Below are positions 2,699 through 63,470 of a DNA stretch of 64,000 nt, piece by piece (position 1 is the stretch's first letter; each line of letters begins with the position of its first letter). The notes beneath the pieces are model-generated. The model was not told where the DNA came from. It searched no databases and worked only from the letters and a program-made list of their open reading frames with translations. The position numbers were made by a program, and so were the translations under genes. The stretch spans positions 1,865,001-1,929,000 of the forward strand of contig NZ_CP088273.1 of the NCBI RefSeq assembly GCF_020731415.2. The letters run 5' to 3'. The DNA is from Phyllobacterium sp. T1293 (lineage in GTDB: Bacteria; Pseudomonadota; Alphaproteobacteria; Rhizobiales; Rhizobiaceae).

Positions 2699-2766
2699 TT
2701 GGTCCTGCAATTCAACCAATTGTTGTTTGGAAATATTGGCAGAAATTGCTATATTATCCTTGGAGT

Positions 2767-2790
2767 GGGAGCGAGCTTTCGCCCGCCCCC
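2767..2790 (-). other. 3' hairpin with GAAA loop, copy A
   Basis: On the minus strand ten base pairs (two of them G-U) close a GAAA tetraloop. On the plus strand the same positions would give A-C mismatches, so the functional RNA strand is probably the minus strand. The other copies have matching hairpins at 3161-3184, 3555-3578, 48498-48523 and 48897-48922. Confidence 0.6.
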
Positions 2791-2818
2791 GTTTCCTCAA
2801 GAGCAAATCGAACCCGGA

Positions 2819-2884
2819 TCACCAGCGTCCAGCCGGTCCGGGTTCTTTTACTTCAAGGGTGATGCTGAGTGGTTTACGCCACAT
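2819..2884 (-). pseudogene. Small frame, copy A (frameshifted relative to copies B-D)
   Basis: The ribosome-binding site GGAGGT (2891-2896) precedes ATG at 2884, and the first 13 codons match copy C (M-W-R-K-P-L-S-I-T-L-E-V-K). One A is missing from the A-run that follows (four instead of five), shifting the frame so that translation ends after 21 residues at TGA. The bases that would encode the rest remain but lack the stop used in copy C. The frame is therefore decayed, or it is a short variant. Copy E carries the same one-base loss at the same place and also ends after 21 residues. Confidence 0.45.
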
Positions 2885-2899
2885 CATGTCACCTCCAGT

Positions 2900-2985
2900 T
2901 TTGAGAGCAAGGCCATTGCCATGGTCGGGAAGGCCCATCTCCCCAATACACCTGATGGCTCGGTGTGTGCTGCTTCGCTCTCAAA
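2900..2985 (-). promoter_or_regulatory. Structured leader of copy A
   Basis: On the minus strand the outer helix pairs TTTGAGAGC (2977-2985) with GCTCTCAAA (2900-2908). Inside lie an ACACC/GGTGT hairpin, a TTGGGGAG/CTTCCCGA hairpin that is fully paired through G-U, and a small GGC/GCC hairpin. The helix ends a few bases before the ribosome-binding site of the small frame, which suggests control of translation (inference). Confidence 0.55.
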
Positions 2986-3160
2986 TGCGAGATGGCCAAG
3001 TCTTGGCAAATTCCGCGCGAACGACAACAAATGCAGGGTTGAAAAGGCGTCAGCGACCGCATTTAGCGGTTGTTTCAGCATGCATTTTTGACAACGAAAG
3101 CGAGTTGTTTGGGGAAATTCGACTTGGAAAAGCGAGTAAAATACCTTACTCTTCTGGAGT

Positions 3161-3184
3161 GGAGGCGGGCTTTTGCCCACCTCC
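3161..3184 (-). other. 3' hairpin (AAAA loop), copy B
   Basis: Ten base pairs close an AAAA loop on the minus strand (GGAGGTGGGC / GCCCGCCTCC, one U-G pair), starting a few bases after the small frame's stop. No T-run follows on this strand, so it may be a stabilising 3' end rather than a classical terminator. Confidence 0.6.
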
Positions 3185-3189
3185 GTTTG

Positions 3190-3279
3190 CTAGGACATGA
3201 ATTGGACCCGGAGCGTAACTTGCCAGCTCGTCCGGGTTCTTTTCATTTCCAGTGTGATGCATAGCGGTAGATACCACAT
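3190..3279 (-). CDS. Conserved 29-residue small protein, copy B
   Basis: GGAGGT (3286-3291) precedes ATG at 3279 with good spacing, and a 29-codon frame ends at TAG. The product begins M-W-Y-L-P-L-C-I-T-L-E-M-K-R-T-R-T-S-W and is basic. It alternates hydrophobic and polar residues on both sides of a KRTRTS turn, suggesting a beta-hairpin and no membrane helix. Compared with copies C and D it has synonymous codons at Leu6 (CTA/CTC/CTT), Thr9, Leu10 (CTG/CTT/TTA), Thr17, Val25 and Phe27, and no indels, which is the pattern of a selected reading frame. I do not recognise the family and assign no function. An antisense RNA could overlap its 3' half. Confidence 0.55.
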   Translation of the reverse strand: MWYLPLCITLEMKRTRTSWQVTLRVQFMS

Positions 3280-3294
3280 TGCTTCACCTCCAGT

Positions 3295-3380
3295 TTTGAG
3301 AGCAAGGCCATTGCCATGGTCGGGGAGGCCCATCTCCCCGATACATCGGCTGGCTCGATGTGTGCTGCTTCGCTCTCAAA
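3295..3380 (-). promoter_or_regulatory. Structured leader of copy B
   Basis: The outer helix is TTTGAGAGC / GCTCTCAAA. Internal hairpins on the minus strand are ACATCG/CGATGT and TCGGGGAG/CTCCCCGA, both perfect Watson-Crick, plus a small GGC/GCC or CCAT/ATGG hairpin. This copy gives the clearest fold. It directly abuts the GGAGGTGA ribosome-binding site. Confidence 0.6.
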
Positions 3381-3516
3381 TTCGAGATGACCAGTCTTGG
3401 CAAATTCCGCGCGAACGACAACAAATGCAGGGTTGAAAAGGCATCAGCGACCGCATTTAGCGGTTGTTTCAGCATATATTTTCAATGCTGAAAGCCTGTC
3501 ATTTGGGGAAATTCGA

Positions 3517-3638
3517 CTTGGAAATGCGGGGGAAATACACTATTATTCTGGAGTGGAGGCGGGCTTTCGCCCACCCCCTTTTCCTAGAAGTTAAATCGAA
3601 CCCGGATCACCAGCTGCCAGCCGGTCCGGGTTCTTTTT
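3517..3638 (+). promoter_or_regulatory. Promoter-like motif and terminator-like hairpin antisense to the copy C small frame
   Basis: CTTGGA (3517-3522), 18 bases, then TATTAT (3541-3546) resembles a sigma-70 promoter pointing into the 3' end of the small frame. About 85 bases on, AACCCGGA/TCCGGGTT (3599-3632) and a CTTTTT tract form a good intrinsic terminator. Copy A has TTTGGA-18-TATATT; copies B, D and E keep CTTGGA with weaker -10 boxes. A short antisense RNA is therefore possible, but expression cannot be judged from sequence. Confidence 0.4.
3555..3578 (-). other. 3' hairpin with GAAA loop, copy C
   Basis: On the minus strand GGGGGTGGGC pairs with GCCCGCCTCC around GAAA, with two G-U pairs and no mismatch. 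The G-U positions become A-C mismatches on the other strand. Confidence 0.6.
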
Positions 3639-3673
3639 ACTTCAAGGGTGATGCTGAGTGGTTTACGCCACAT
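3584..3673 (-). CDS. Conserved 29-residue small protein, copy C
   Basis: A GGAGGT ribosome-binding site lies just upstream, and two ATGs are available (3676 and 3673); I chose the second because it gives the Met-Trp start shared by all copies. The product begins M-W-R-K-P-L-S-I-T-L-E-V-K-R-T-R-T-G-W and ends R-V-R-F-N-F before TAG. It is strongly basic, has no hydrophobic membrane segment and has a predicted strand-turn-strand layout. The five-A run at codons 13-14 is intact here, unlike copies A and E. The reverse complement of that run is the T-tract of a terminator-like hairpin on the plus strand. Function is unknown. Confidence 0.55.
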   Translation of the reverse strand: MWRKPLSITLEVKRTRTGWQLVIRVRFNF

Positions 3674-3688
3674 CATGTCACCTCCAGT

Positions 3689-3773
3689 TTTGAGAGCAAG
3701 GCCATTGCCATGGTCAGGAGGCCCATCTTCCTGATACACCGGCTGGCTCGATGTGTGCTGCTTCGCTCTCAAA
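3689..3773 (-). promoter_or_regulatory. Structured leader of copy C
   Basis: The outer helix TTTGAGAGC / GCTCTCAAA is intact. The ACATCG arm pairs with CGGTGT through one U-G pair, and the second hairpin is TCAGGA/TCCTGA, a compensated change from TCGGGA/TCCCGA in copies D and E. Such changes support a real RNA fold on the minus strand. Confidence 0.55.
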
Positions 3774-3909
3774 TTCGAGATGACCAGTCTTGGCAAATTT
3801 CCGGCGCACAACAACGAATGCAGAGTTGAATATTCAACGGGTTCTACAGTTGAGAGTTGTTTTCTCATCCATCTTGATTGCGTCGCAATTGAACGTTTAA
3901 TGCGTGACC

Positions 3910-8108: not shown

Positions 8109-8394
8109 CGTGGATCGACATAACAACCAGGAGGGAGATACTGCCATCGCCCTTCCCATCTCCGTCATCCTCGGGCTTGACCCGAGGACCCACAGTCTAA
8201 AAGCGCCAACAGCCAAGTTCGTCTGATTTCCTTAGCCATGGGTCCTCGGGTCAAGCCCGAGGATGACGGAGATGGGAAGGGCAAGTGAGCAAGTTCTGCG
8301 CCCCTGATTATATATTGCAACTCACCCCTCTCCACGCACCTCACCCCCACCTGTAACCCATCTCTCTCCCTCATGGTTGTTATGTCGAACCACG
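8109..8394. repeat. Nested inverted repeats (family copy 2 enclosing a second palindrome)
   Basis: Outer arms 8109-8138 and 8365-8394 match the 30-bp family arms with two mismatches to each other. Inside, 8150-8192 and 8239-8281 form a second, perfect 43-base inverted repeat with the core CCTCGGGCTTGACCCGAGG. The rest of 7840-8588 shows no gene. It lies upstream of a gene for an exported protein. Confidence 0.8.
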
Positions 8395-15382: not shown

Positions 15383-15517
15383 CGTGGTTCGACAGGCTCA
15401 CCATGAGGGAGAGTGTGGGTTGCAACGACAATCACCAGCATTGCAGATCACCAAGGGGAGCAGAACCTGACTGCCCTTCACCACCCCTCTCCCTCATGGT
15501 GAGCCTGTCGAACCACG
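15383..15517. repeat. Inverted-repeat element, copy 3
   Basis: Arms 15383-15412 and 15488-15517 are perfect reverse complements (core TTCGACAGGCTCACCATGAG). The spacer resembles the reverse complement of the spacer of copy 1, so this copy is inserted in the opposite orientation. It lies between the end of pepN and the convergent toxin gene. Confidence 0.85.
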
Positions 15518-15527
15518 AACCACCAAC

Positions 15528-44603: not shown

Positions 44604-44650
44604 GGAATTTCCTGAATTAATGAGGCGATTGCATAATCAACGTGCGCCCT

Positions 44651-44768
44651 CGTGGTTCGACAGGCTCACCATGAGGGAGATGGGTGATGAAAGGGAGCCA
44701 AGTTCTGCAACCTTTGCAATTGGCTTTACAGCCACCCATTTCCCTCATCCTGAGCTTGTCGAAGGGCG
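44651..44768. repeat. Inverted-repeat element, copy 4, inside the GTA cluster
   Basis: Arms 44651-44680 and about 44739-44768 match the 30-bp family, the right arm having diverged at the centre and end. The spacer shares with copy 1 the words AAGGGAGC, TTCTGCAAC and TTACAGC. It occupies the 190-base gap between the capsid gene and the connector gene and would form a hairpin in the GTA transcript. Confidence 0.8.
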
Positions 44769-44793
44769 CACAATGTTCATGCAGCGCTAAGGA

Positions 44794-47004: not shown

Positions 47005-48168
47005 TCAGTCAGGCTTACGGGCGTATCCCACAGCCTCTCTCTTCTCGTCATCGCTCAGGAATGGCGCTGCAGATATACGCTGCCACAGCGCATCCCGCTC
47101 CATGGACAGCCCATCAATGCGATCGAAATCCGGTTCCAGCCGCAACCGTTCGCCATAAACAGGGCCGAGCCAGTTTCCGATTGCCTTGGCCGTTCGAGTG
47201 ATCAGCGGAATCACCGCCAGACGATAGAATGCGCGATTGGCTTCGGCATAATTGGCATAGGTATTGTCACCGGGAATGCCGAGCAGCATAGGCGGAATAC
47301 CGAAGGCCAAAGCGATGTCGCGGCTGGCAGCATTTTTAGCAGCAATGAAGTCCATATCGCGCGGCGACAGGCCCATGGATTTCCAGTCAAGCCCACCTTC
47401 GAGCAGTAAAGGGCGTCCCGCCTTGGCTGCGCCGGTATACCCCTCTTCCAGTTCTGTCTTCAGCCTGTCGAACTGAGCTTCGGTCAAACGTGCCGTATCC
47501 GCAGGCGCATAAACCAGCGCGCCTGATGGACGCGCGGAATTATCGAGCAGCGCCTTGTTCCAGACGCCAGACGCATTGTGAATGTCGAGCGCCATCAGGG
47601 CTGCTTCAAGCGGCGCAAAGCCATAATGATCATCAAGCGGATGAAACAGTTTGAGATGCAGCGCCTGCCCGTCATCAAGTGCAATGGTGCGCTTATTGGC
47701 ACCAACGCCGTAGCCCAAAGCCACCGGCCATCCATTATCCCCGGTAATGACGCGCACGCGATCCGGGCGCAGCAGATGCAATTCGGCTGCACCATTCCCG
47801 GCGCTAACCCGCTCTATGTAGGCGTTGCCGGAAAGCAGAAGATGACCGTACAGCGTTTCCAACAGGCTTGCTCCGTCGGCGCCGCGATGCGGATTTGACA
47901 GCATGTCAAGCAATGGATGCTGCGTATGTTCCGTCCGCCCTTCGTAGAGTAGCCAAGGTGTGGCGGCGGCGGCTTCCGCCAGAAGACGCACACACCGGTA
48001 GACAATCGGGTTGCGCATAAATCCTTGCCGCGACAGACCCGTATAGCCGCTCTGCGACCAGCGTGCCTCCCGGTCAAATTGCAGCGCTACAAATCCTTGC
48101 GCTGCCTTGGTGTTAAGACGCGGATGTTCATTCGCGGCGCGCCAGCGCCACGGCCAATGAAGTGCCAT
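47005..48168 (-). CDS. GTA portal protein (RcGTA g3-like, HK97 family)
   Basis: The 387-residue portal protein has the HK97 pattern (RNPIVYRCVRLLAEAAAATPW, ETLYGHLLLSGNAYIE, AFGIPPMLLGIPGDNTYANY). It forms the dodecameric DNA entry ring of the head. About 800 bases separate it from the terminase gene, filled by two copies of the small-frame repeat, whereas in other GTA clusters these genes are nearly adjacent. Confidence 0.94.
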   Translation of the reverse strand: MALHWPWRWRAANEHPRLNTKAAQGFVALQFDREARWSQSGYTGLSRQGFMRNPIVYRCVRLLAEAAAATPWLLYEGRTEHTQHPLLDMLSNPHRGADGASLLETLYGHLLLSGNAYIERVSAGNGAAELHLLRPDRVRVITGDNGWPVALGYGVGANKRTIALDDGQALHLKLFHPLDDHYGFAPLEAALMALDIHNASGVWNKALLDNSARPSGALVYAPADTARLTEAQFDRLKTELEEGYTGAAKAGRPLLLEGGLDWKSMGLSPRDMDFIAAKNAASRDIALAFGIPPMLLGIPGDNTYANYAEANRAFYRLAVIPLITRTAKAIGNWLGPVYGERLRLEPDFDRIDGLSMERDALWQRISAAPFLSDDEKREAVGYARKPD

Positions 48169-48303
48169 GGAAAATATTCTCTCTGATTGTTGAGATAGGT
48201 CAGATCACGAGGACAACCGCGCGAGGAAAATCGCGCTGTCGTTTCAACCCTGCATTCGTGGAATTTCGCGCAAAACCCGGCAATGTGTTGAACCGGAACA
48301 AGT

Positions 48304-48388
48304 TTTGAGGGCGAAGCAGTACACACCGAACCAGCCGGTGTATCGGGACGATGGGCCTCCCGACCATGGCAATGGCCTTGCTTTCAAA
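48304..48388 (+). promoter_or_regulatory. Structured leader of copy D
   Basis: The outer helix TTTGAGGGC / GCTTTCAAA pairs throughout with two G-U pairs. Internal hairpins are ACACCG/CGGTGT and TCGGGA/TCCCGA, plus a small GGC/GCC hairpin. It stands directly before GGAGGTGA. Confidence 0.55.
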
Positions 48389-48402
48389 CTTGGAGGTGAA
48401 TG

Positions 48403-48495
48403 ATGTGGTATCCGCCACTTAGCATCACCTTAGAAATGAAAAAGACCCGGACGAGCTGGACCCTCGTAATCCGGGTCAATTTCAAGTTCTAAGAA
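48403..48495 (+). CDS. Conserved 29-residue small protein, copy D
   Basis: GGAGGTGA (48392-48399) precedes two ATGs; 48403 gives the shared Met-Trp start (48400 is too close to the ribosome-binding site). The frame M-W-Y-P-P-L-S-I-T-L-E-M-K-K-T-R-T-S-W continues to R-V-N-F-K-F and stops at TAA (the stop lies at 48490-48492). Compared with copy C, Leu10 changes from CTT to TTA, and Leu6, Thr17, Val and Phe codons change only synonymously. The product is basic with a predicted strand-turn-strand shape; function is unknown. It is transcribed against the GTA genes. Confidence 0.55.
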
Positions 48496-48497
48496 AA

Positions 48498-48523
48498 GGG
48501 GCGCGGGCGAAAGCTCGCGTCCC
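48498..48523 (+). other. 3' hairpin with GAAA loop, copy D
   Basis: Eleven pairs (two G-U) close a GAAA loop: GGGGCGCGGGC / GCTCGCGTCCC. It begins 5 bases after the small frame's stop. Confidence 0.6.
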
Positions 48524-48701
48524 ACTCCAAGACCTTACAATAATCTCCCGGTCTTTCCAAGCAACCCAGAGTGGACGCTCCATTCAACGGTTGAATTCCC
48601 CGATCTCGAGACAACCCAGTTCCGCCAGAACGAACGCAATTACAACTCTGCATTCGTGGACCTGTTCGAAAAACCCGGCAAAATGTTGAACCAGAACGAG
48701 T

Positions 48702-48787
48702 TTTGAGAGCGAAAGCAGTACACGTCGAGCCAGCCGGTGTATCGGGACGATAGGCCTCCCGACCACAGCAATGGCCTTGCTCTCACA
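48702..48787 (+). promoter_or_regulatory. Structured leader of copy E
   Basis: The outer helix has one mismatch (TTTGAGAGC / GCTCTCACA). The hairpin ACGTCG/CGGTGT pairs through tandem G-U, and TCGGGA/TCCCGA is intact. An extra A after the outer helix shows that the region is not protein coding. Confidence 0.5.
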
Positions 48788-48802
48788 CTTGGAGGTGAAT
48801 TA

Positions 48803-48868
48803 TGTGGTATCTACCACTTAGTATCACCCTGGAAATGAAAAAGACCCGGACGAGCTGGTACCTCGTAA
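48803..48868 (+). pseudogene. Small frame, copy E (frameshifted relative to copies B-D)
   Basis: GGAGGTGA and ATG 48803 are intact, and the first 13 codons match copies B and D (M-W-Y-L-P-L-S-I-T-L-E-M-K). The following A-run is one base shorter than in copy D (four A), so the frame ends after 21 residues. Restoring one base would give a 29-residue product ending in F-I-H at a TAG, so the loss looks recent. Copy A shows the same loss. Confidence 0.45.
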
Positions 48869-48896
48869 TCCGGGTCAATTTCATACACTAGGAAAA

Positions 48897-48922
48897 GGGG
48901 TGCGGGCGAAAGCTCGCATCCC
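48897..48922 (+). other. 3' hairpin with GAAA loop, copy E
   Basis: GGGGTGCGGGC pairs with GCTCGCATCCC around GAAA. The T-A pair here replaces the C-G pair of copy D, a compensated change. Confidence 0.6.
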
Positions 48923-48971
48923 ACTCCAAGACCATACAATAATCTCTCCACTTTTCCAAGCAACCCGAGGT

Positions 48972-50312
48972 TTAGTCCATCACGCGAATACGCGGACTGA
49001 TGTCTTTTTTCAGCATCAGTTCGCTCAGAGCCCAGACCAATGCATCCACACGATCCGGCGAACGCCCGTTTGATAACCCTGCATGGGTGAAATCGCACAT
49101 CTCATCCTCCAGTGCCGGAAAGCGGCCAGCGTGCCTGATCCTACCCTGTTCATACAATGCGGCGATGGGTTCAGCCCGCAGCGCTTTGCCGCGATTAGCA
49201 CGCACGCCGCGAACTGGCACAGTGTTATCCTCAGCAGCGATTACAGCGGCAACCATATCGCCGCCCTGGTTTATCTCAGCCACGATCAGATCGGCCTCCA
49301 GCCTGTAGAACAGCTGGATGGAACGTTTGGCCCATTGAATAGGTTTGGCGGGAGCGAAACTCTCATCGGCGAGTATCCAGCCTATACCTTCCGCATCAAC
49401 CCCTGCAGCAACGATCCCGCAAGCGTCGGACTTTCGCGTTGCGCTGGCTGGCGGATCGATAGTGACGACAATCCTCTGCATTTCCGGGACGTCGGCACGA
49501 TAAATCTCTTCCATCATTGACCGCGACCACAGGGCATCACGGCGCTCCTCAATCAGTTCGCCATCAAGCTCCTGTCGTCCCAGCCGCGTTCCACCATAGA
49601 GCTTGCCCATATGTGCAAGAAAGCTCTGGGCCAGATTGGCATTATTCTCGACGGTGCGCATCCGGCGTACCAAAACAGCACTGTCGTTCATCAAAGCCTT
49701 TAGCAAAGCGATCGGCTTTGGTGTTGTTGTTACAATCTGCTTCGGATTTTCGCCCAGCCGCAAACCAAATTGCAGCATGTCCCAGGTTTCCTGCGCATGT
49801 TTCCACTTGCCCAACTCATCACACCAAGCCGCACCAAATTGCGGTCCGCGCAAACTATCCGGATCTTCGGATGAAAACATTGCCGCCGTTGCGCCATTGG
49901 CCCAGACAAGCCGTCGGCGCGTTGCCTCAAAGCGCGGGCGGTCAGTCCGAGACACCGCCATGATGCCGGACGGTCCGTCAATCATGACTTCGCGCACATC
50001 CGCAAGGGTTTCACCAACCAGTGCGATGTTGAGAGCGGCTGGCTGTTTGAACGGCGGAAATCCATGCACAATGCTGTTCACCCACTCGGCTCCGGCGCGG
50101 GTCTTGCCGGAACCGCGCCCGCCAAGGATCAGCCAGGTACGCCAGTCATGATATGGTGGCTGTTGGCTCGCCCGCCCCTGAAATATCCATTCATTGGTCA
50201 AGGCCTGTATCTGCACGGGGCTGAGATTGTTGGCACACCAGTTCATCCGCTCGGCATAGGGCAAGTTCATGGATTCTTCCATCAATGCGAACCAGCGCTT
50301 CCCGCAGTTCAT
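48972..50312 (-). CDS. GTA terminase large subunit (RcGTA g2-like)
   Basis: This protein (about 446 residues) packages DNA into GTA heads. It has Walker A GGRGSGKTRAGAEW near residue 70, a Walker B-like FGAAWCDELGKW, and a C-terminal nuclease domain (VVTIDPPASATRKSDACGIV, SPDRVDALVWAL). The start is uncertain: ATG 50312 or ATG 50282 (MEESMNLPYAER), both inside the upstream gene's 3' end. Confidence 0.95.
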   Translation of the reverse strand: MNCGKRWFALMEESMNLPYAERMNWCANNLSPVQIQALTNEWIFQGRASQQPPYHDWRTWLILGGRGSGKTRAGAEWVNSIVHGFPPFKQPAALNIALVGETLADVREVMIDGPSGIMAVSRTDRPRFEATRRRLVWANGATAAMFSSEDPDSLRGPQFGAAWCDELGKWKHAQETWDMLQFGLRLGENPKQIVTTTPKPIALLKALMNDSAVLVRRMRTVENNANLAQSFLAHMGKLYGGTRLGRQELDGELIEERRDALWSRSMMEEIYRADVPEMQRIVVTIDPPASATRKSDACGIVAAGVDAEGIGWILADESFAPAKPIQWAKRSIQLFYRLEADLIVAEINQGGDMVAAVIAAEDNTVPVRGVRANRGKALRAEPIAALYEQGRIRHAGRFPALEDEMCDFTHAGLSNGRSPDRVDALVWALSELMLKKDISPRIRVMD

Positions 50313-56679: not shown

Positions 56680-59600
56680 TTAAAACCGGACTGTCAGATC
56701 AGCCTTGACGGCATTGTCATGAGCTTGTTGCGAGAACTGACCCGTATAGGTGACACCGATGGTTGTGGCTTTGCCGATATCAAAGGAAAGGCCAGCTTCG
56801 GCAAGCGCTGTGTCCTGTGCCAATGGCAGACCCGCAACCAACATGCCATCAGCACCGGCAAGTGCCACCGAAACATCGGGAGCCCGATCACCATAGGCGT
56901 GGCGCCAACCCGCCATGCCCCGGGCGGTGAGCACAGTCGTCCCGCTCAAGACGAAGCTGTGCGAGGCCCTGACACCCAAGGTCGTTGTTGTGAGGTCCGT
57001 TGTGCCGGATAGGCCAGACAGAGCCGTGATACCGCCAAGTTCAGCAAAATCATTGGCTTTGAGATGGGTATAGGCGGCAGCGGCAAAGGGTTCGAGTGCC
57101 GCATAGGGTGTATCAATGCGATAGGCAGCCTCGCCAAAGACCTGCACCGTGTTGGCGGCGTACTCGGCTTTGTCCGTCTCGGCGATGGAACCGAAAGCAA
57201 CCTTGCGGCGCGTGCTGATCTCATGATGGGCAAAGCTGGTGCCGAGGCTCAAGGTCAACGCATCCACTTTCGTGCCGCCATAGACACCGACCTGATAGGT
57301 ATCGACAGAAGCGTGACTGCGATCTGCATTCAGCGATGTATTGCCATAGCCCGCAAGCAGACCAAAGCGCCATGTTTCGGCAAGAACGCCATCAAGACCG
57401 GTGATGAGCCCGCCAGTGTTGCGGCTGAAACCAGCGGCATTGCCGTCAGTGCCCGCATGGTTGCGCGAACCATAGGCTGTGCCCCAGAGCGCAGTGGTTG
57501 ACGCGGCAGGTTCAACGGCGGCAAAGGCTTCACCTGCGACCGCATTGCCCCGTTTTGTTTCAGGACCATATGCCAGCACCGGCGCCGCCTTGCTGCCTGT
57601 GGCATCACCAAAGGCGGCACGGATACGGTCGCTTGCCGCATCACGCACAAACTGGCTGTCCTTGGCCAAAGCCCCTCTGAGCGAGGCATGAATATCGCCG
57701 CCCAGAGCGTCATAATCGAGCTTTTCGCCAACTTTTGAGAAGAGAACCGTGTTCAGAAGCGGGTTGCCGAGATCAAACGTCTTGATTGCAGCCCCCACAC
57801 TCTTCTGGTTATTCGTCACGGTATCGACGAGAGCGAGATTTTTCACCCGTTCTTTCAAAAGTGCTGTTTTCAGGCGGTCGGCCTCTTCCTCGGCTTTGCG
57901 CTGATCTACTGGCTGCACCGCGGTTGCGACCGGTGCCACAACCTTCGGCTGTTCGACCGGTGCTTGTACTGGCTGAGCAGGTACGTTTGCCACGGGTGGC
58001 TTTGCTTCATCAACTGGTTTTGACACTGGCTGAACCGACGCAACCACTACCGGTGGCTTTGGCTGCTCGGCAGGTGCTTGTACTGGCTGAGCAGGTACGT
58101 TGGCCACGGGTGGCTTTGGTGCATCAACTGGCTTTGGCGCTGGCTGAACCGACGCAACCACCACCGGTGGCTTTGGCTGCTCGGCAGGTGCCGGTACTGG
58201 CTGAGCAGGTACGTTTGCCACGGGTGGCTTTGGTGCATCAACTGGCTTTGGCGCAACCACGACCGGTGGCTTTGGTGGCTCGGCAAATGCCGGTACTGGC
58301 TGAACAGGTACGTTTGCCACGGGTGGCTTTGGTGCATCAACTGGCTTTGGCGTAACCACGACCGTTGGCTTTGGTGGCTCGGCAAATGCCGGTACTGGCT
58401 GAACAGGTACGTTTGCCACGGGTGGCTTTGCTTCATCAACTGGTTTTGACACTGGCGGCACCAGATCAAAGCCCAGAACCACTGTCTTATCCGTATAGGC
58501 AAGCGACGGGCTGATATAGTTATAGTGAGGAAAAACGTCGTCGAATTTCCCGGTCATCTTGCCTGCTGTCAGAATGACATAGTTCTTCTTGAACAGGCTC
58601 TCGACCGTTTCCTTTGTCAGGAGTGCCTTGTCGCCTTCCAGACGGACATTCACGATACCGCCCAAAAGATGCGCCTCTCCGTCCACGGCGATTTGGTCCG
58701 TACGGGATTTATCTTTCGTGATTTCCACGTCAAAGATACTGCCCTGTTTAAAAGTTGCATCACCTGCTTGCAGCGTACCAACGGAATTGCCCGGCGCTGC
58801 TGTACCGCCCTTCTCGACGATCAGAGTGCCAACCCTGCCGGAGCCGCCGAGTTTTGCTTTGTCCTGAACGGTTACAACACCACCCAGCTGACCATTGACC
58901 GCCAATGTTCCGGCCGCCACTTTTGTCTGTCCTTTATAATCACCGCTTTGCGCATCAAGGATCAGTTTTCCGTCTCCTGTTTTGGTCAGCCCGCCAGCGC
59001 CTGAGAGTTTTGTCGAGAGAAGGACATCAAGATTTTGGGTGTCGATGGTGGCACCGCGCTCCTTGAGGTCAAGCGGCTTGGTTGTCTGCAATGCCGAGGC
59101 CGCCTCATATCGCAGCGTTCCGCCATCCAAGGTGAGTGACGTCAGGTTGGAATTGCCTGTTATGTTCCACACCGCATTGTTTTGCAGAGTGAGATTGGCG
59201 AAGGATTTGGCATCCACCACCGCTGTGCCTGTTAGCTTGGAGGCAGCGTCGGCCGTCAGATTGAGAGTGCCGCCATCTTCAACACTCAACAGCCCGCTCG
59301 CGCCGCTGACCGTTGATCCGGTGAGATGTGCCGTCAGGGTTGTACCAATGTCCTTTACATCAATACCGACGCCTTTGTCCGACCGCAGCTTTGCATTGGT
59401 GATGGTGGCAATATTGGGGTCGATCATGTCGGCAAAAGATTGCGAAAACAATGCCGCAGACCGGTCGCCTGATACAGTGATTGAGCCGCCGATTATTGTT
59501 AGCTCGCCGCATTCACTCACTGCCACACCATATGTATCAACACCGCTGGTTGAAGTCTCGACACCATTGGCGGTTAACCGGCTGCCTTTACGAGAGGAAA

Positions 59601-62600
59601 GCAGACCGTGAGCATAAAGGCCTGTTGTCGTGACCTTTCCGCCAGTCAGCTCAACTACCCCCCCCTCTTGCGCCTCAGCGCCGATTGCTAGGTCTCCTTT
59701 GGTTGAAAGGCTGAGATTCTTCCCCGAAATGTGCGATTGGGAACCAAATGAGGAAAGCGCTCCTGCGTAAGGTCCCGATGCTTCCACCGTGGTGCCTTCG
59801 AGTAAATTGATCGTTCCACCGTCCAGAGCCAGCACCCCGTCAGCCTGCTTGCCTGACGTCACGACCTTTCCGCCTGTCAGTGTAATCGAGCCACCCTTCT
59901 CCGCCATAACCCCGACTGCTTCGTCTCCCTTGGTGAAAATCTCGGCACCCTCGGCCGTTATTTGGCTGCCTTTCTCATAGGAAACAAGACCGTCAGCTTT
60001 CCTGCCTGTTGTCGTTACAGTTCCTCCGGTCAGCTTAACCAACCCTTCACCAAGGGCCTTAGCGCCATCTGCGGTCTCTCCCTTGGTTAAAATTGTAAGA
60101 TTTTCCCCCGAAATGCTCGACCGGGGATCCCATGAAAGAAGCGCTCTTGCATTGTTTCCCGATGTATTGACCGTGGTGCCTTCGGATAATGTGATCTTTC
60201 CACCCTTCGCAGCCACCACCCCGCTGGCATCGTTGCCGCCAGTGTTGATCACCAGCGGTGTACTACTGGTGATGACACCTTCCTTGTTGCGGGCGATCAG
60301 CGCACTTCCCGCTCCCCCATCGGTTTTGCCAGTGTCGTAGGTTCCGCTTGCGATTTGCGTCTTGCCGTCGGCAATCACGTTGACTGACGGGAGTTGGACC
60401 TTATCCACGACCGGTTTCGGCTGCTTATCGCTAGCCGGTTTCGGCTGCTGATCCTTATCCACGACCGGTTTCGGCTGCTTATCGTTAGCCGGTTGCGGCT
60501 GCTGACCGTTAGCCACAACCGACGGCGGCTGCTTATCGCTAGCCGGTTTCGGCTGCTGATCCTTATCCACGACCGACGGCGGCTGCTTATCGCTAGCCGG
60601 TTTCGGCTGCTGATCCTTATCCACGACCGGTTTCGGCTGCTTATCGCTAGCCGGTTGCGGCTGCTGATCCTTATCCACGACCGGTTTCGGCTGCTTATCG
60701 CTAGCCGGTTGCGGCTGCTGACCGTTAGCCACAACCGACGGCGGCTGCTTATCGCTAGCCGGCTTCGGCTGCTGATCCTTATCCACGACCGGTTTCGGCT
60801 GCTGATCCTTATCCACGACCGATGGTGGCTGCTTATCGCTAGCCGGTTGCGGCTGCTGACCGTTAGCCACGACCGATGGCGGCTGCTTATCGCTAGCCGG
60901 TTTCGGCTGCTGATCCTTATCCACGACCGACGGCGGCTGCTTATCGCTAGCCGGTTGCGGCTGCTGACCGTTAGCCACGACCGATGGCGGCTGCTTATCG
61001 CTAGCCGGCTTCGGCTGCTGATCCTTATCCACGACCGGTTTCGGCTGCTTATCGCTAGCCGGTTTCGGCTGCTGATCCTTATCCACGACCGGTTTCGGCT
61101 GCTTATCGTTAGCCGGTTGCGGCTGCTGGCCCTTATCCACGACCGACGGCGGCTGCTTATCGTTAGTCGGTTTCGGCTGCTGATCCTTATCCACGACCGG
61201 TTTCGGCTGCTGGCCTTCGCCCGTCTTCACCGAATTCTCACTGGTTTTGATCGGGTTCTCACCGGTCTTGACAGGGTTGTCACTAGCCTTGATTTTGTCG
61301 CTGTCCAGCTTTTGCTTAGCAGCCAATTCTTGCTGCTCTTTGACCAATTTTTGTTCTGCTTCGGTCTTGGCAGCAGGTGTCAGATCAAAGCCCAGAACCA
61401 CTGCCTTATCCGTATAGGCAAGCGACGGGCTGATATAGTTATAGTGAGGAAAAACGTCGTCGAATTTCCCGGTCATCTTGCCTGCTGTCAGAATGACATA
61501 GTTCTTCTTGAACAGGCTCTCGACCGTTTCCTTTGTCAGGAGTGCCTTGTCGCCTTCCAGACGGACATTCACGATACCGCCCAAAAGATGCGCTTCTCCG
61601 TCCACGACGAGTTGGTCCGTACGGGATTTATCTTTCGTGATTTCCACGTCAAAGATACTGCCCTGTTTAAAAGTTGCATCGCCTGCTTGCAGCGTAGTAC
61701 CAACGGAATTGCCCGGCGCTGCTGTACCGCCCTTCTCGACGATCAGACTGCCAACCCTGCCGGAGCCGCCGAGTTTTGCTTTGTCCTGAACGGTTACGAC
61801 ACCGCCCAGCTGACCAATGACCTCCAGTGTTCCGGCCGCCACTTTTGTCTGTCCTTTATAATAATCGCTTTGCACATAAAGGATCAGTTTTCCGTCTCCT
61901 GTTTTGGTCAGCCCGCCAGCGCCTGAGAGTTTTGTCCAGAGACCGACATCAAGATTTTGGGTGTCGATGGTGGCACCGCGCGCATCGAGGTTAAGCGGCT
62001 GGTTTATCTGCAATGCCGAGGCCGCCTCATATCGCAGCGTTCCGCCATCCAAGGTGAGTGACGTCAGGTTGGAATTGCCTGTTATGTTCCACACCGCATT
62101 GTTTTGCAGAGTGAGATTGGCGAAGGATTTGGCATCCACCACCGCTGTGCCTGTTAGCTTGGAGGCAGCGTCGGCCGTCAGATTGAGAGCGCCGCCATCT
62201 TTAACACTCAACAGCCCGCTCGCCCCACTGATCGTTGATCCGGTGAGATCCGCCTTCAAGATTACACTAGGGCCCGTTACAGTAATGCCGACGCCTTTGT
62301 CCGATCGCAGCGTCGCATTGGTGATGGTGGCAGTGCTGGTGTTCATCGCCTTGCTAGAAGATAGCGCATGCAACGCCGCAGCCTTGTCGCCTAACGCAGT
62401 GACTGAACCGCCGGTGATCGTTAGCTTGCTGCCATCCGATACTATTGCACCATGTGCTTCGGCACCGCTTGTTGACAGCTCGACATTATTAGCCGTCACC
62501 GTGCTGTCTTTACCCAAGGACATCAGACCGAAAGCACCCTTGCCTTTTGTGGTCAGCTTTCCGCCGGTCAGCTCAACCGAGCCTCCATCTTGCGCCGTAG

Positions 62601-63237
62601 CCCCGGCTGCTTCGTCTCCCTTGGTTAAAATGGTGAGTTTCTTCCCCGAAATGTGCGACAGGGCGCCCGATGAGAGAAGCGCTCTTGCACCCTTTCCCGA
62701 TGTATTGACCGTGGTGCCTTCGAACAATGTGATCTTTCCACCCTTCTCAGCCCACACCGCGGTGGCGTCGTCACCGCCAGTGATGATTGTCAGCGGCGCG
62801 GCACTGGTGATGACGCCCTTCTTGTTGCGGGCGATTAACGCGCTTCCGGCACCCCCCTTAACTTTGCCAGTGTCGTGGGTTCCGTTTGCGGTTTTTGCTG
62901 TGTCGTCGGCAATCACGTTGACCGACGGGAGTTGGACCTTGCCATCGCCAGCCGCGACAATGTTGCCACCACCATTGTTTTCAAGCTGCGGACTATTTGT
63001 ATTCGTATTTGTAGTTGTAGTTGTATTTGTCTTTTTAAGCTGCGGATTTACATTCAAGAATGGATTCCCTTGATAGTTCGACGTCTTGCCCTTCGCCGGT
63101 TCTCCCCCCTCACTGGAATAGGCAGCCGTGAGCAGCAGCGCTACACAGACGCCGCGCAGGAGATGGTTGCGAAATCTGGAATGGCAACGGGAATTTGGGC
63201 GCACAGGGGCAGCCGCAGCTTTGGCGTGAAAAGACAT
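56680..63237 (-). CDS. Giant autotransporter (type V secretion) with duplicated passenger
   Basis: This protein (about 2185 residues) should cross the inner membrane by Sec and the outer membrane through its own barrel. In order it has a long signal peptide (MSFHAKAAAAPVRPNSR to CVALLLTAAYS), passenger module 1 (about 80-640), a Gln/Pro/Lys repeat linker (about 640-945; roughly 15 units of about 18 residues such as KQPKPVVDKDQQPKPASD), passenger module 2 (about 945-1590) nearly copying module 1, a second Pro/Val/Ala-rich linker with KPVDAPKPPVANVP-type repeats (about 1590-1780) and a C-terminal beta-barrel ending ADLTVRF. Each module ends with autotransporter beta-strand repeats (LSGAGGLTKTGDGKLIL, GGSGRVG). 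It is likely an adhesin; start ATG 63237 fits the signal. Confidence 0.9.
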   Translation of the reverse strand: MSFHAKAAAAPVRPNSRCHSRFRNHLLRGVCVALLLTAAYSSEGGEPAKGKTSNYQGNPFLNVNPQLKKTNTTTTTNTNTNSPQLENNGGGNIVAAGDGKVQLPSVNVIADDTAKTANGTHDTGKVKGGAGSALIARNKKGVITSAAPLTIITGGDDATAVWAEKGGKITLFEGTTVNTSGKGARALLSSGALSHISGKKLTILTKGDEAAGATAQDGGSVELTGGKLTTKGKGAFGLMSLGKDSTVTANNVELSTSGAEAHGAIVSDGSKLTITGGSVTALGDKAAALHALSSSKAMNTSTATITNATLRSDKGVGITVTGPSVILKADLTGSTISGASGLLSVKDGGALNLTADAASKLTGTAVVDAKSFANLTLQNNAVWNITGNSNLTSLTLDGGTLRYEAASALQINQPLNLDARGATIDTQNLDVGLWTKLSGAGGLTKTGDGKLILYVQSDYYKGQTKVAAGTLEVIGQLGGVVTVQDKAKLGGSGRVGSLIVEKGGTAAPGNSVGTTLQAGDATFKQGSIFDVEITKDKSRTDQLVVDGEAHLLGGIVNVRLEGDKALLTKETVESLFKKNYVILTAGKMTGKFDDVFPHYNYISPSLAYTDKAVVLGFDLTPAAKTEAEQKLVKEQQELAAKQKLDSDKIKASDNPVKTGENPIKTSENSVKTGEGQQPKPVVDKDQQPKPTNDKQPPSVVDKGQQPQPANDKQPKPVVDKDQQPKPASDKQPKPVVDKDQQPKPASDKQPPSVVANGQQPQPASDKQPPSVVDKDQQPKPASDKQPPSVVANGQQPQPASDKQPPSVVDKDQQPKPVVDKDQQPKPASDKQPPSVVANGQQPQPASDKQPKPVVDKDQQPQPASDKQPKPVVDKDQQPKPASDKQPPSVVDKDQQPKPASDKQPPSVVANGQQPQPANDKQPKPVVDKDQQPKPASDKQPKPVVDKVQLPSVNVIADGKTQIASGTYDTGKTDGGAGSALIARNKEGVITSSTPLVINTGGNDASGVVAAKGGKITLSEGTTVNTSGNNARALLSWDPRSSISGENLTILTKGETADGAKALGEGLVKLTGGTVTTTGRKADGLVSYEKGSQITAEGAEIFTKGDEAVGVMAEKGGSITLTGGKVVTSGKQADGVLALDGGTINLLEGTTVEASGPYAGALSSFGSQSHISGKNLSLSTKGDLAIGAEAQEGGVVELTGGKVTTTGLYAHGLLSSRKGSRLTANGVETSTSGVDTYGVAVSECGELTIIGGSITVSGDRSAALFSQSFADMIDPNIATITNAKLRSDKGVGIDVKDIGTTLTAHLTGSTVSGASGLLSVEDGGTLNLTADAASKLTGTAVVDAKSFANLTLQNNAVWNITGNSNLTSLTLDGGTLRYEAASALQTTKPLDLKERGATIDTQNLDVLLSTKLSGAGGLTKTGDGKLILDAQSGDYKGQTKVAAGTLAVNGQLGGVVTVQDKAKLGGSGRVGTLIVEKGGTAAPGNSVGTLQAGDATFKQGSIFDVEITKDKSRTDQIAVDGEAHLLGGIVNVRLEGDKALLTKETVESLFKKNYVILTAGKMTGKFDDVFPHYNYISPSLAYTDKTVVLGFDLVPPVSKPVDEAKPPVANVPVQPVPAFAEPPKPTVVVTPKPVDAPKPPVANVPVQPVPAFAEPPKPPVVVAPKPVDAPKPPVANVPAQPVPAPAEQPKPPVVVASVQPAPKPVDAPKPPVANVPAQPVQAPAEQPKPPVVVASVQPVSKPVDEAKPPVANVPAQPVQAPVEQPKVVAPVATAVQPVDQRKAEEEADRLKTALLKERVKNLALVDTVTNNQKSVGAAIKTFDLGNPLLNTVLFSKVGEKLDYDALGGDIHASLRGALAKDSQFVRDAASDRIRAAFGDATGSKAAPVLAYGPETKRGNAVAGEAFAAVEPAASTTALWGTAYGSRNHAGTDGNAAGFSRNTGGLITGLDGVLAETWRFGLLAGYGNTSLNADRSHASVDTYQVGVYGGTKVDALTLSLGTSFAHHEISTRRKVAFGSIAETDKAEYAANTVQVFGEAAYRIDTPYAALEPFAAAAYTHLKANDFAELGGITALSGLSGTTDLTTTTLGVRASHSFVLSGTTVLTARGMAGWRHAYGDRAPDVSVALAGADGMLVAGLPLAQDTALAEAGLSFDIGKATTIGVTYTGQFSQQAHDNAVKADLTVRF
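58470..59340 (-). repeat. Near-identical copy of 61380-62260 (module end duplication)
   Basis: Long runs are identical between the two segments (end of module 2 and of module 1), including third codon positions, so they duplicated or were homogenised recently. Upstream parts of the modules have diverged more. Confidence 0.8.
60400..61250 (-). repeat. Short tandem repeats encoding the Gln/Pro/Lys-rich linker of the autotransporter
   Basis: Units of about 54 bases repeat about 15 times, varying at Pro-Lys versus Pro-Ser, Asp-Lys versus Ala-Asn and Lys-Pro versus Gln-Pro positions. Copy number is likely to vary between strains by slippage. The repeat also makes a long unreal frame on the other strand. 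Confidence 0.85.
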
Positions 63238-63470
63238 AAAATATGGTTCCCAACATAGGTGACAGATGAAAAACAAAGGACGTTGAAATACGAATCAATA
63301 TGATTTTTAATACCACCGTTAGAATCGAATATATTGTGCTGCGTCAATGACTTATTGAATATCCGCATAGGATTTTAGTCGTACAAGACATAAGGCTAAC
63401 GCCTCTTGACCCTGAATATCCGGCTGAGGACACTGCCCGGTAAACTGGTGGTAAAACCTGTTTCACGCAT

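Follow-up and report, generated by a model that had tools for sequence, protein, structure and literature searches.

The window analyzed here, a 64,000-nucleotide (nt) stretch of the Phyllobacterium sp. T1293 genome (contig NZ_CP088273.1, positions 1,865,001 to 1,929,000), contains five copies of a repeated unit that carries a structured leader, a Shine-Dalgarno (SD) sequence, a short reading frame and a 3' hairpin on one strand and a predicted antisense RNA gene on the other. In this bacterium, which is associated with plants and soil, we propose that the unit probably represents a new family of modules resembling type I toxin-antitoxin systems. All five units were located in the two tandem arrays reported in an initial annotation of this DNA: array A consists of three units at approximately 2.69-3.83 kb with the frame on the minus strand, and array B of two units at approximately 48.24-48.97 kb with the frame on the plus strand. 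The SD sequence GGAGGTGA, correctly noted as common to all five, starts at 3685, 3291 and 2896 (minus strand, array A) and at 48392 and 48791 (plus strand, array B). Array A is regular as described, but the spacing measured 393-395 instead of exactly 394 bases, and 398-399 in array B. Likewise, the reported 29-codon Met-Trp frame was intact in four of the five units, being 29 or 30 codons long and in some starting with Met-Met-Trp, while in unit A3 (SD 2896) an indel past codon 14 breaks the reading and results in 22 amino acids. The parts ascribed to one strand are present, but the predicted RNA gene on the opposite strand, with a sigma70-like promoter, a hairpin and an intrinsic terminator that lies within the frame, had not been described. 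In unit A1, the DNA of this antisense RNA gene yields the 3' hairpin when read on the minus strand. The features of the five units are as follows:

3811..3828, minus strand (genome 1868811-1868828): unit A1 upstream element, resembling CAACCCTGCRTTYNTTGC, about 158 nt 5' of the start codon
3678..3773, minus strand: unit A1 closed multi-hairpin leader, ending in the SD GGAGGTGA (3678-3685)
3584..3676, minus strand: unit A1 frame, 30 codons plus stop, beginning Met-Met-Trp
3550..3638, plus strand: unit A1 candidate antisense RNA gene, with the terminator T-run ending at about 3638
3518-3523 (-35, TTGGAA) and 3541-3546 (-10, TATTAT), plus strand: unit A1 antisense promoter, read by eye
3547..3553, minus strand: unit A1 predicted anti-SD site (complement of NNNGGAG), from covariation across the family and absent from the single-sequence fold of this unit
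3418..3435, minus strand (genome 1868418-1868435): unit A2 upstream element
3284..3380, minus strand: unit A2 leader with the SD at 3284-3291
3190..3279, minus strand: unit A2 frame, 29 codons plus stop
3156..3243, plus strand: unit A2 candidate antisense RNA gene, with -35 at 3124-3129 and -10 at 3147-3152 by eye
3024..3041, minus strand (genome 1868024-1868041): unit A3 upstream element
2889..2985, minus strand: unit A3 leader with the SD at 2889-2896
2819..2887, minus strand: unit A3 frame broken by the indel, 22 codons, matched by the peptide profile in two pieces
2762..2849, plus strand: unit A3 candidate antisense RNA gene, with -35 at 2727-2732 and -10 at 2750-2755 by eye
48245..48262, plus strand (genome 1913245-1913262): unit B1 upstream element
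48304..48399, plus strand: unit B1 leader with the SD at 48392-48399
48400..48492, plus strand: unit B1 frame, 30 codons plus stop
48439..48528, minus strand: unit B1 candidate antisense RNA gene (covariance-model match at genome 1913436-1913554)
48555-48560 (-35) and 48532-48537 (-10-like), minus strand: unit B1 antisense promoter, weaker, by eye
48643..48660, plus strand: unit B2 upstream element, by eye
48702..48798, plus strand: unit B2 leader with the SD at 48791-48798
48802..48891, plus strand: unit B2 frame, 29 codons plus stop
48838..48927, minus strand: unit B2 candidate antisense RNA gene, with -35 at 48954-48959 and -10 at 48931-48936 by eye

The family had been described as having five copies, which is true of the window, but a covariance model of the antisense side detected 11 units in the whole genome, organized in arrays of three, two and two as well as four single units, all on the largest contig. 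The peptide profile matched ten of these over positions 1-28 and the eleventh partially. The DNA of one unit matched all 20 sampled genus genomes (own genome included; 1-13 matches each) versus none of 19 genomes of other genera at the same sensitivity, which argues against a chance occurrence. A total of 135 units out of 148 profile hits were retained from 80 genus stretches after removal of overlaps, edge cases and hits below 30 bits, and 118 of the 135 possessed a frame of 26-31 amino acids bearing the motif. A pattern scan of named genomes matched at least 118 stretches, and among the matches listed the frame was present in Rhizobium, Neorhizobium, Agrobacterium, Pararhizobium, Aureimonas, Tianweitania, Microvirga, Methylobacterium, Chelatococcus, Mesorhizobium, Pseudaminobacter and Alkalicaulis. 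Homologous units built from these parts occur in other genera, on plasmids and in phages, so that the condition under which the initial annotation would have been refuted, a lack of homologues sharing fold and frame, did not arise. The peptide profile identified 25 of 121 genomes at E 0.001 and, at E 1e-6, 87 of 394 genomes and 29 of 109 genera of the family of the window (own genus included), a count of profile hits that were not each confirmed as whole units. This family is Rhizobiaceae in GTDB, and NCBI taxonomy assigns the genus to Phyllobacteriaceae. In samples of the class (289 genomes) and the phylum (299 genomes), with up to 28 candidates scored per genome, the profile found the own genome only, which is no proof of absence because Alkalicaulis, a member of another order, carries a unit. 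An order-wide covariance search with 18 candidates scored per genome was positive in at least six of 199 genomes, own genome included. Arrays were also observed elsewhere: one other genus has four copies spaced by approximately 367 nt, and a further genus has two triplets that include a copy with an internal stop.

To analyze the frame, single-base codon differences were counted in 83 disjoint unit pairs. For codons 2-12, which lie outside the terminator of the antisense gene, 133 of 252 differences were synonymous (0.53 versus 0.296 expected, z 8.1), and the same pattern was apparent inside the terminator at codons 13-26 (122 of 250 versus 0.279 expected, z 7.4). The other two sense frames exhibited no synonymous excess, while an antisense frame sharing the wobble positions gave a weaker mirror signal (0.40 versus 0.246). 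The units used in this test had been pre-selected for an intact frame with R at codons 16 and 24 (214 of 256, 173 distinct), which introduces a mild frame-0 bias. These data indicate that the frame is under coding selection, and a non-coding frame was ruled out by the test both within and beyond the terminator.

The encoded peptide is 28-30 residues long across the family and follows the consensus MWxxPxSITLxxKRTRTSWxLxIRVxF, with a median net charge of +5 (167 peptides). Its moment at 170 degrees exceeds that at 100 degrees in both strands, and a structure model of a 30-residue peptide gave a two-strand beta-hairpin with a mean predicted local distance difference test score (pLDDT) of 83 and a predicted template modelling score (pTM) of 0.32. 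The peptide is cationic and predicted to be a beta-hairpin, and its charge and amphipathic strands suggest membrane activity. Searches with sets of 2, 37, 67 and 3 peptides and one profile returned no significant peptide match in Pfam, NCBIfam, PHROGs, PADLOC or the PDB sequences; the best family match, to YrzI at a non-significant E of 0.021, involved two of 67 peptides. Of the 150 PDB entries listed by a fold search with E up to 10, none reached 0.001.

Structure was examined in 61 units of less than 80% identity drawn from the 173 distinct ones, with shuffles and wobble counts uncorrected for relatedness. The 17 pairs of the antisense-side structure had a covariation score of 0.391 versus 0.148 +- 0.009 in shuffled and at most 0.098 in slid alignments, with 139 double changes versus 30.2. 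The closing stem of the leader was at -13.8 kcal/mol in native units versus -9.8 +- 0.34 kcal/mol when permuted between units (54 of 61 rows), and RNAalifold reported 11 leader pairs, nine of them with double changes. Covariation in DNA is blind to the strand, whereas a G-U pair on one strand corresponds to an A-C mismatch on the other. Wobble in the 3' hairpin was found in 90 cells on the sense strand versus seven (37 versus six without manually added in-between columns), and in two leader hairpins it likewise favored the sense strand (18 versus five and 29 versus none). For the terminator, wobble fell on the antisense strand (42 cells versus five; 21 versus three without the last pair). The count omits two predicted pairs: 46/51, next to the loop in the 3' hairpin (5 to 4 by pair type), and 202/212 in the leader (3 to 3). 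By rows with a wobble excess, the 3' hairpin scored 52 sense and no antisense, the leader 37 sense and one antisense, and the terminator 34 antisense and three sense. The closed leader and 3' hairpin of the initial annotation are therefore upheld across relatives by covariation and wobble, and the strand-specific wobble suggests that these two act in a sense RNA and the terminator in an antisense RNA. That both strands act as RNA is the simplest reading, and the sequence data as a whole constitute strong evidence for two functional opposing RNAs. Such a strand-specific wobble test illustrates that sequence alone can argue for both strands of an overlapping locus being functional RNA. As a separate observation, three units carry an extra palindrome in a leader hairpin loop (L006:1454-1494, in the own genome near 2186950, as well as L029 and L059); the exact L006 pattern was seen only in loci of the same place.

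From a sigma70-like promoter, the antisense gene is predicted to produce an RNA of approximately 88-90 nt with complementarity to the message over its 3' half. In the promoter, TTGGAA or TTGAAA is separated, mostly by 16-17 nt, from a TATATT-like -10 box, and GGAG lies a few nt further on (most commonly 6-7 for the genus units, 3 or 7 for those of the named genomes); this is followed by a hairpin and then by an intrinsic terminator with its stem within the frame. Among distinct units, a -10 box and start were present in 105 of 107 from the genus, 83 of these with a -35 box (at least four of six matches to TTGACA, taking the best of spacings 15-19), and in 48 of 66 from the named genomes, 37 with a -35 match, counts that stand without a shuffled control. 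By eye, the antisense -10 boxes of array B are poorer.

GGAG is near-invariant at both the SD and the antisense start, and the SD is predicted to pair with a CUCC site that directly follows the 3' hairpin (NNNGGAG with CUCCNNN). In the 61 units, the bases at -1, -2 and -3 paired in 51, 39 and 28 units versus 39.2, 26.3 and 18.4 in shuffles, while positions -4, -5, +4, +5, +7 and +8 gave no pairing signal and +6 was marginal (P 0.03); these flanking positions serve as the internal control. The zero-offset register was the best with 118 of 183, followed by -1 with 88. An initial form of this test had used 57 of the 61 rows. A repeat with 100 of 215 non-redundant frames gave z values of 7.7, 5.3 and 3.8, with |z| at or below 1.7 at the other varying positions; the set stemmed from scanning every fetched locus for the motif, which gave 345 frames prior to thinning (not each confirmed as a whole unit), and 115 were excluded because the rules did not locate an antisense -10 box or an SD. 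Judged by promoter spacing, the covarying bases coincide with the antisense start or precede it, which places the pressure on the sense RNA. This also bears on whether the antisense RNA is instead a trans-acting two-hairpin RNA directed at other messages with the frame as a by-product. Its own promoter and terminator, its multi-copy nature and its conserved structure would suit such a role, but coding selection extends beyond the overlap, and a sense RNA is needed to explain both the SD lock and the wobble that leader and 3' hairpin keep on the sense strand, leaving this explanation highly improbable.

An 18-bp element approximately 158 nt 5' of the start codon was conserved at 14 or more of 18 matches in 116 of 133 genus units versus 0.45% in base shuffles, with a motif that was derived from the genus units themselves. 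It was present at this level in all 11 units of the own genome and in none of 44 units of other genera. Its TTG/TTGC end may fit a -35 box. In Phyllobacterium units the conserved element sits upstream of the putative sense promoter. The possibility that it represents the site of a wider regulon was considered and discarded: nine of the 12 genome sites with up to two mismatches were at units, versus one control site, and the search revealed no unit at the remaining three, so that no clear wider regulon emerged.

Outside chromosomes, units were found in 41 plasmid records, 18 of them from Sinorhizobium, with 20 plasmids being conjugative and 11 mobilizable. An identical 29-residue peptide is encoded on plasmids of Sinorhizobium meliloti, S. 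chiapasense, S. fredii and Ensifer adhaerens. Places without a listed gene accounted for 37 of the 40 shown on plasmids, for which the gene table is incomplete, and for four of five in phages, the fifth record being unannotated. The five phage records include V1VFA-S, B1VFA and RHph_X66. According to the accessible portion of PMC12509600, B1VFA and V1VFA-S carry parA, parB and repC and are termed phage-plasmid-like. The Sinorhizobium plasmid pLM21S1 (L305) and Rhizobium phages (L240, L307), of approximately 120 kb, share common neighbors of the unit (nicotinamide adenine dinucleotide (NAD) salvage and prohibitin/SPFH genes).

Array B is embedded in a gene transfer agent (GTA) type cluster, with its frames opposing portal and terminase; the cluster also contains GTA_TIM (PF13547):

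47005..50312, minus strand: setting of array B, with the GTA-type portal (PF04860) at 47005-48168 and the large terminase (PF03237, PF17289) at 48972-50312

When this terminase/portal site was compared across 17 genus loci, two units each were present in G000 and G015, one each in G012, G008 and G002, and a decayed one in G016. By eye, the empty site of G010 still holds the outermost upstream portion of a unit, so that a unit was probably lost there by deletion. These data also address the non-autonomous mobile unit carrying a small protein that the initial annotation had offered as one possibility. Multiple copies, tandem arrays, a patchy distribution and varied loci would all be expected of such an element. 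However, no clear target duplication was visible by eye at the junctions of this site, the only one compared, and one of its empty forms holds a unit remnant; the nearly constant spacing of units inside an array is in keeping with tandem duplication, and terminal inverted repeats were not systematically searched. We therefore consider a mobile unit a very improbable explanation.

In the viral collection the pattern occurred in 55 contigs, 49 of which contained GTA genes, a proportion that does not represent a genome-wide share because IMG/VR over-represents GTA clusters. Of the GTA-located units, 43 were between an NlpC-like gene and GTA_TIM, four beside the NlpC-like gene without a GTA_TIM match on the piece and two at portal/terminase; all 49 oppose the operon, and 36 are at less than 90% mutual identity. 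The collection contains these GTA clusters as viral contigs (L314:628-14366 and 48 others, L309-L363). In genome-collection and annotated-record loci, GTA genes were found at 16 of 120 unit loci, again with all 16 units opposite to the operon. Within each site, the common orientation may go back to a single ancestral insertion. Such uniform opposition, mostly at NlpC-like/GTA_TIM, would be compatible with a regulatory device that opposes GTA transcription from inside the cluster. Nevertheless, among the 80 fetched non-Phyllobacterium family loci from the matches listed, GTA genes were within 3 kb in only two, both of one genus. The placement is thus long-standing and stable in certain lineages without being general. 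In addition, none of 18 other-genus genomes with both the peptide and GTA_TIM had listed places of the two within 20 kb by eye, and a GTA-operon device appears scarcely credible.

Taken together, of the three suggestions made in the initial annotation (type I toxin-antitoxin-like repeat, dual-function RNA, mobile unit), the first fits best because of the coding selection, the antisense gene with promoter and terminator, the locked SD and the presence on conjugative plasmids, in phage-plasmid-like phages and in multi-copy arrays of the chromosome. At the sequence level the units contain a short frame (below about 60 amino acids), a predicted complementary antisense RNA gene and a message structure with predicted translational restraint, as type I systems do. 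The assignment is supported by sequence evolution in the coding frame, the RNA structures of both strands, the SD lock and the distribution, while toxicity, neutralization, 3' trimming and addiction are steps that we infer. The principal alternative is a dual-function RNA whose non-toxic small protein has a cellular job, e.g. binding membranes, nucleic acid or a partner, with the antisense RNA tuning its dose. Coding selection and conservation of the peptide over many genera agree with this, as do its departure from typical hydrophobic toxins and long retention such as that of the 36 diverged GTA-located units. A selfish or addictive module is better suited to the patchy occurrence (87 of 394 family genomes) with many paralogues per genome, and it is also favored by presence, decay and loss at one site combined with carriage on conjugative plasmids and phage-plasmid-like records, so that we regard the dual-function RNA as unlikely.

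In the proposed type I-like mechanism, a sense promoter approximately 120 nt 5' of the frame would drive an RNA with the closed multi-hairpin leader, whose SD would be locked by the helix to the site past the 3' hairpin, with codons 8-9 adding to the lock in some folds. This message would encode the cationic peptide predicted to form a beta-hairpin, most likely membrane-active and growth-inhibiting, while the convergent antisense RNA would end at the intrinsic terminator inside the frame. The full-length message would be inert, and trimming from the 3' end up to the 3' hairpin would strip off the anti-SD site and free the SD; fold-back acts analogously in hok. Trimmed messages would be captured by the antisense RNA and directed to decay. 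If the replicon were lost, the message would stay while no new antisense RNA was made, which would account for carriage on plasmids and phage-plasmids.

Several observations weigh against this interpretation. With a mean GRAVY (grand average of hydropathy) of 0.10, the peptide departs from the hydrophobic membrane helix that is usual, though not universal, among type I toxins. In single-sequence folds of four window units, the probability of distal SD pairing was 0.84, 0.35-0.39, 0.02-0.03 and 0, with other pairings covering the SD in the last. Since the antisense RNA starts with the GGAG of the SD, its binding to the anti-SD site could free the SD, and repression is assumed. No sense terminator was identified, and the relatedness of the units is uncorrected in the shuffles and wobble counts. 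Most units in the family-wide sample were chromosomal or on unclassified contigs, and no unit was found at 11 of the 17 terminase/portal loci, eight of these having both terminase and portal.

Comparison with known systems revealed partial similarities. The LDR (ldr/rdl) and QUAD (ibs/sib) systems of E. coli are type I systems with tandem and dispersed copies of a few hundred bases; they share this arrangement and the pairing of a short frame with an opposite-strand antisense RNA gene, but encode a hydrophobic helix as opposed to the cationic beta-hairpin predicted here, and the antisense terminator inside the frame is particular to the present units. No sequence relation to them was detected: at the gathering level of Rfam 15 the whole window had no match, and a lax search over array B produced seven sub-threshold hits, including OrzO-P at 18.1 bits versus a cut-off of 60. 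None of these seven was an alpha-r family; Rfam includes alpha-r14, which we take to be SmelA075. The hok/sok system of plasmid R1 has an antisense RNA and plasmid carriage, and its message combines a structured leader with an SD lock formed by a distal 3' element. All of these are paralleled here, along with a plausible processing step, but the hok/sok antisense RNA covers the leader reading frame, whereas here it covers the 3' half of a single frame, and the peptide is unrelated. In bsrG/SR4 and txpA/RatA of Bacillus, the antisense RNA overlaps the 3' end of the toxin message and the systems are carried by mobile elements, as in the present family and, according to a source available in part, yonT/SR6; the Bacillus systems differ in phylum, peptide class and RNA folds.

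Rhizobial RNA surveys in S. meliloti (PMC3927594 and PMC2873474, each available in part) were compared by description, not by sequence. In the accessible text of PMC3927594, SmelC775/SmelC776 of Sinorhizobium are mutually antisense small RNAs with complete microsynteny mainly in the Sinorhizobium/Ensifer group; they resemble the present units as two opposing small RNAs in a rhizobium, and the description there mentions no frame or tandem repeats. SmelA075, described in the same portion of PMC3927594 as multi-copy Rhizobiales RNAs, shares the occurrence of several copies per genome in Rhizobiales but has three hairpins with CCUCCUCCC loops. The type II and counter-transcribed RNA (ctRNA) features of a rhizobial plasmid in the available part of PMC10194956 are other than this family. 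Among the best matches listed from the open-licence literature, the family is undescribed and no rhizobial type I toxin-antitoxin system was found.

Apart from the units, the window contains an autotransporter (PF03797) of 2198 amino acids at 56680-63276 on the minus strand with internal repeats of 54 bases and longer, as well as dispersed palindromic repeats at 135-265, 8149-8282, 15452-15527 and 44650-44774, one of which has 44-base perfectly complementary arms 46 nt apart.

A more specific scenario, which we put forward tentatively, is that of a new class of RNA-controlled addiction module that has a cationic membrane-active beta-hairpin in place of a hydrophobic helix, is kept closed by a co-evolving SD/anti-SD fold-back and was recruited at least twice into GTA clusters, at terminase/portal in Phyllobacterium and at NlpC-like/GTA_TIM in Rhizobium, Neorhizobium and kin, with all units seen opposing the operon. 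If true, the module could penalize loss of the GTA cluster or link the silencing of the peptide to GTA expression, which would offer a testable answer to the persistence of these costly clusters. If the peptide is toxic, a beta-hairpin class would join the RNA-controlled toxins, and in plant-associated bacteria the family would serve plasmids and phage-plasmids, as well as certain GTA clusters, as a retention device.

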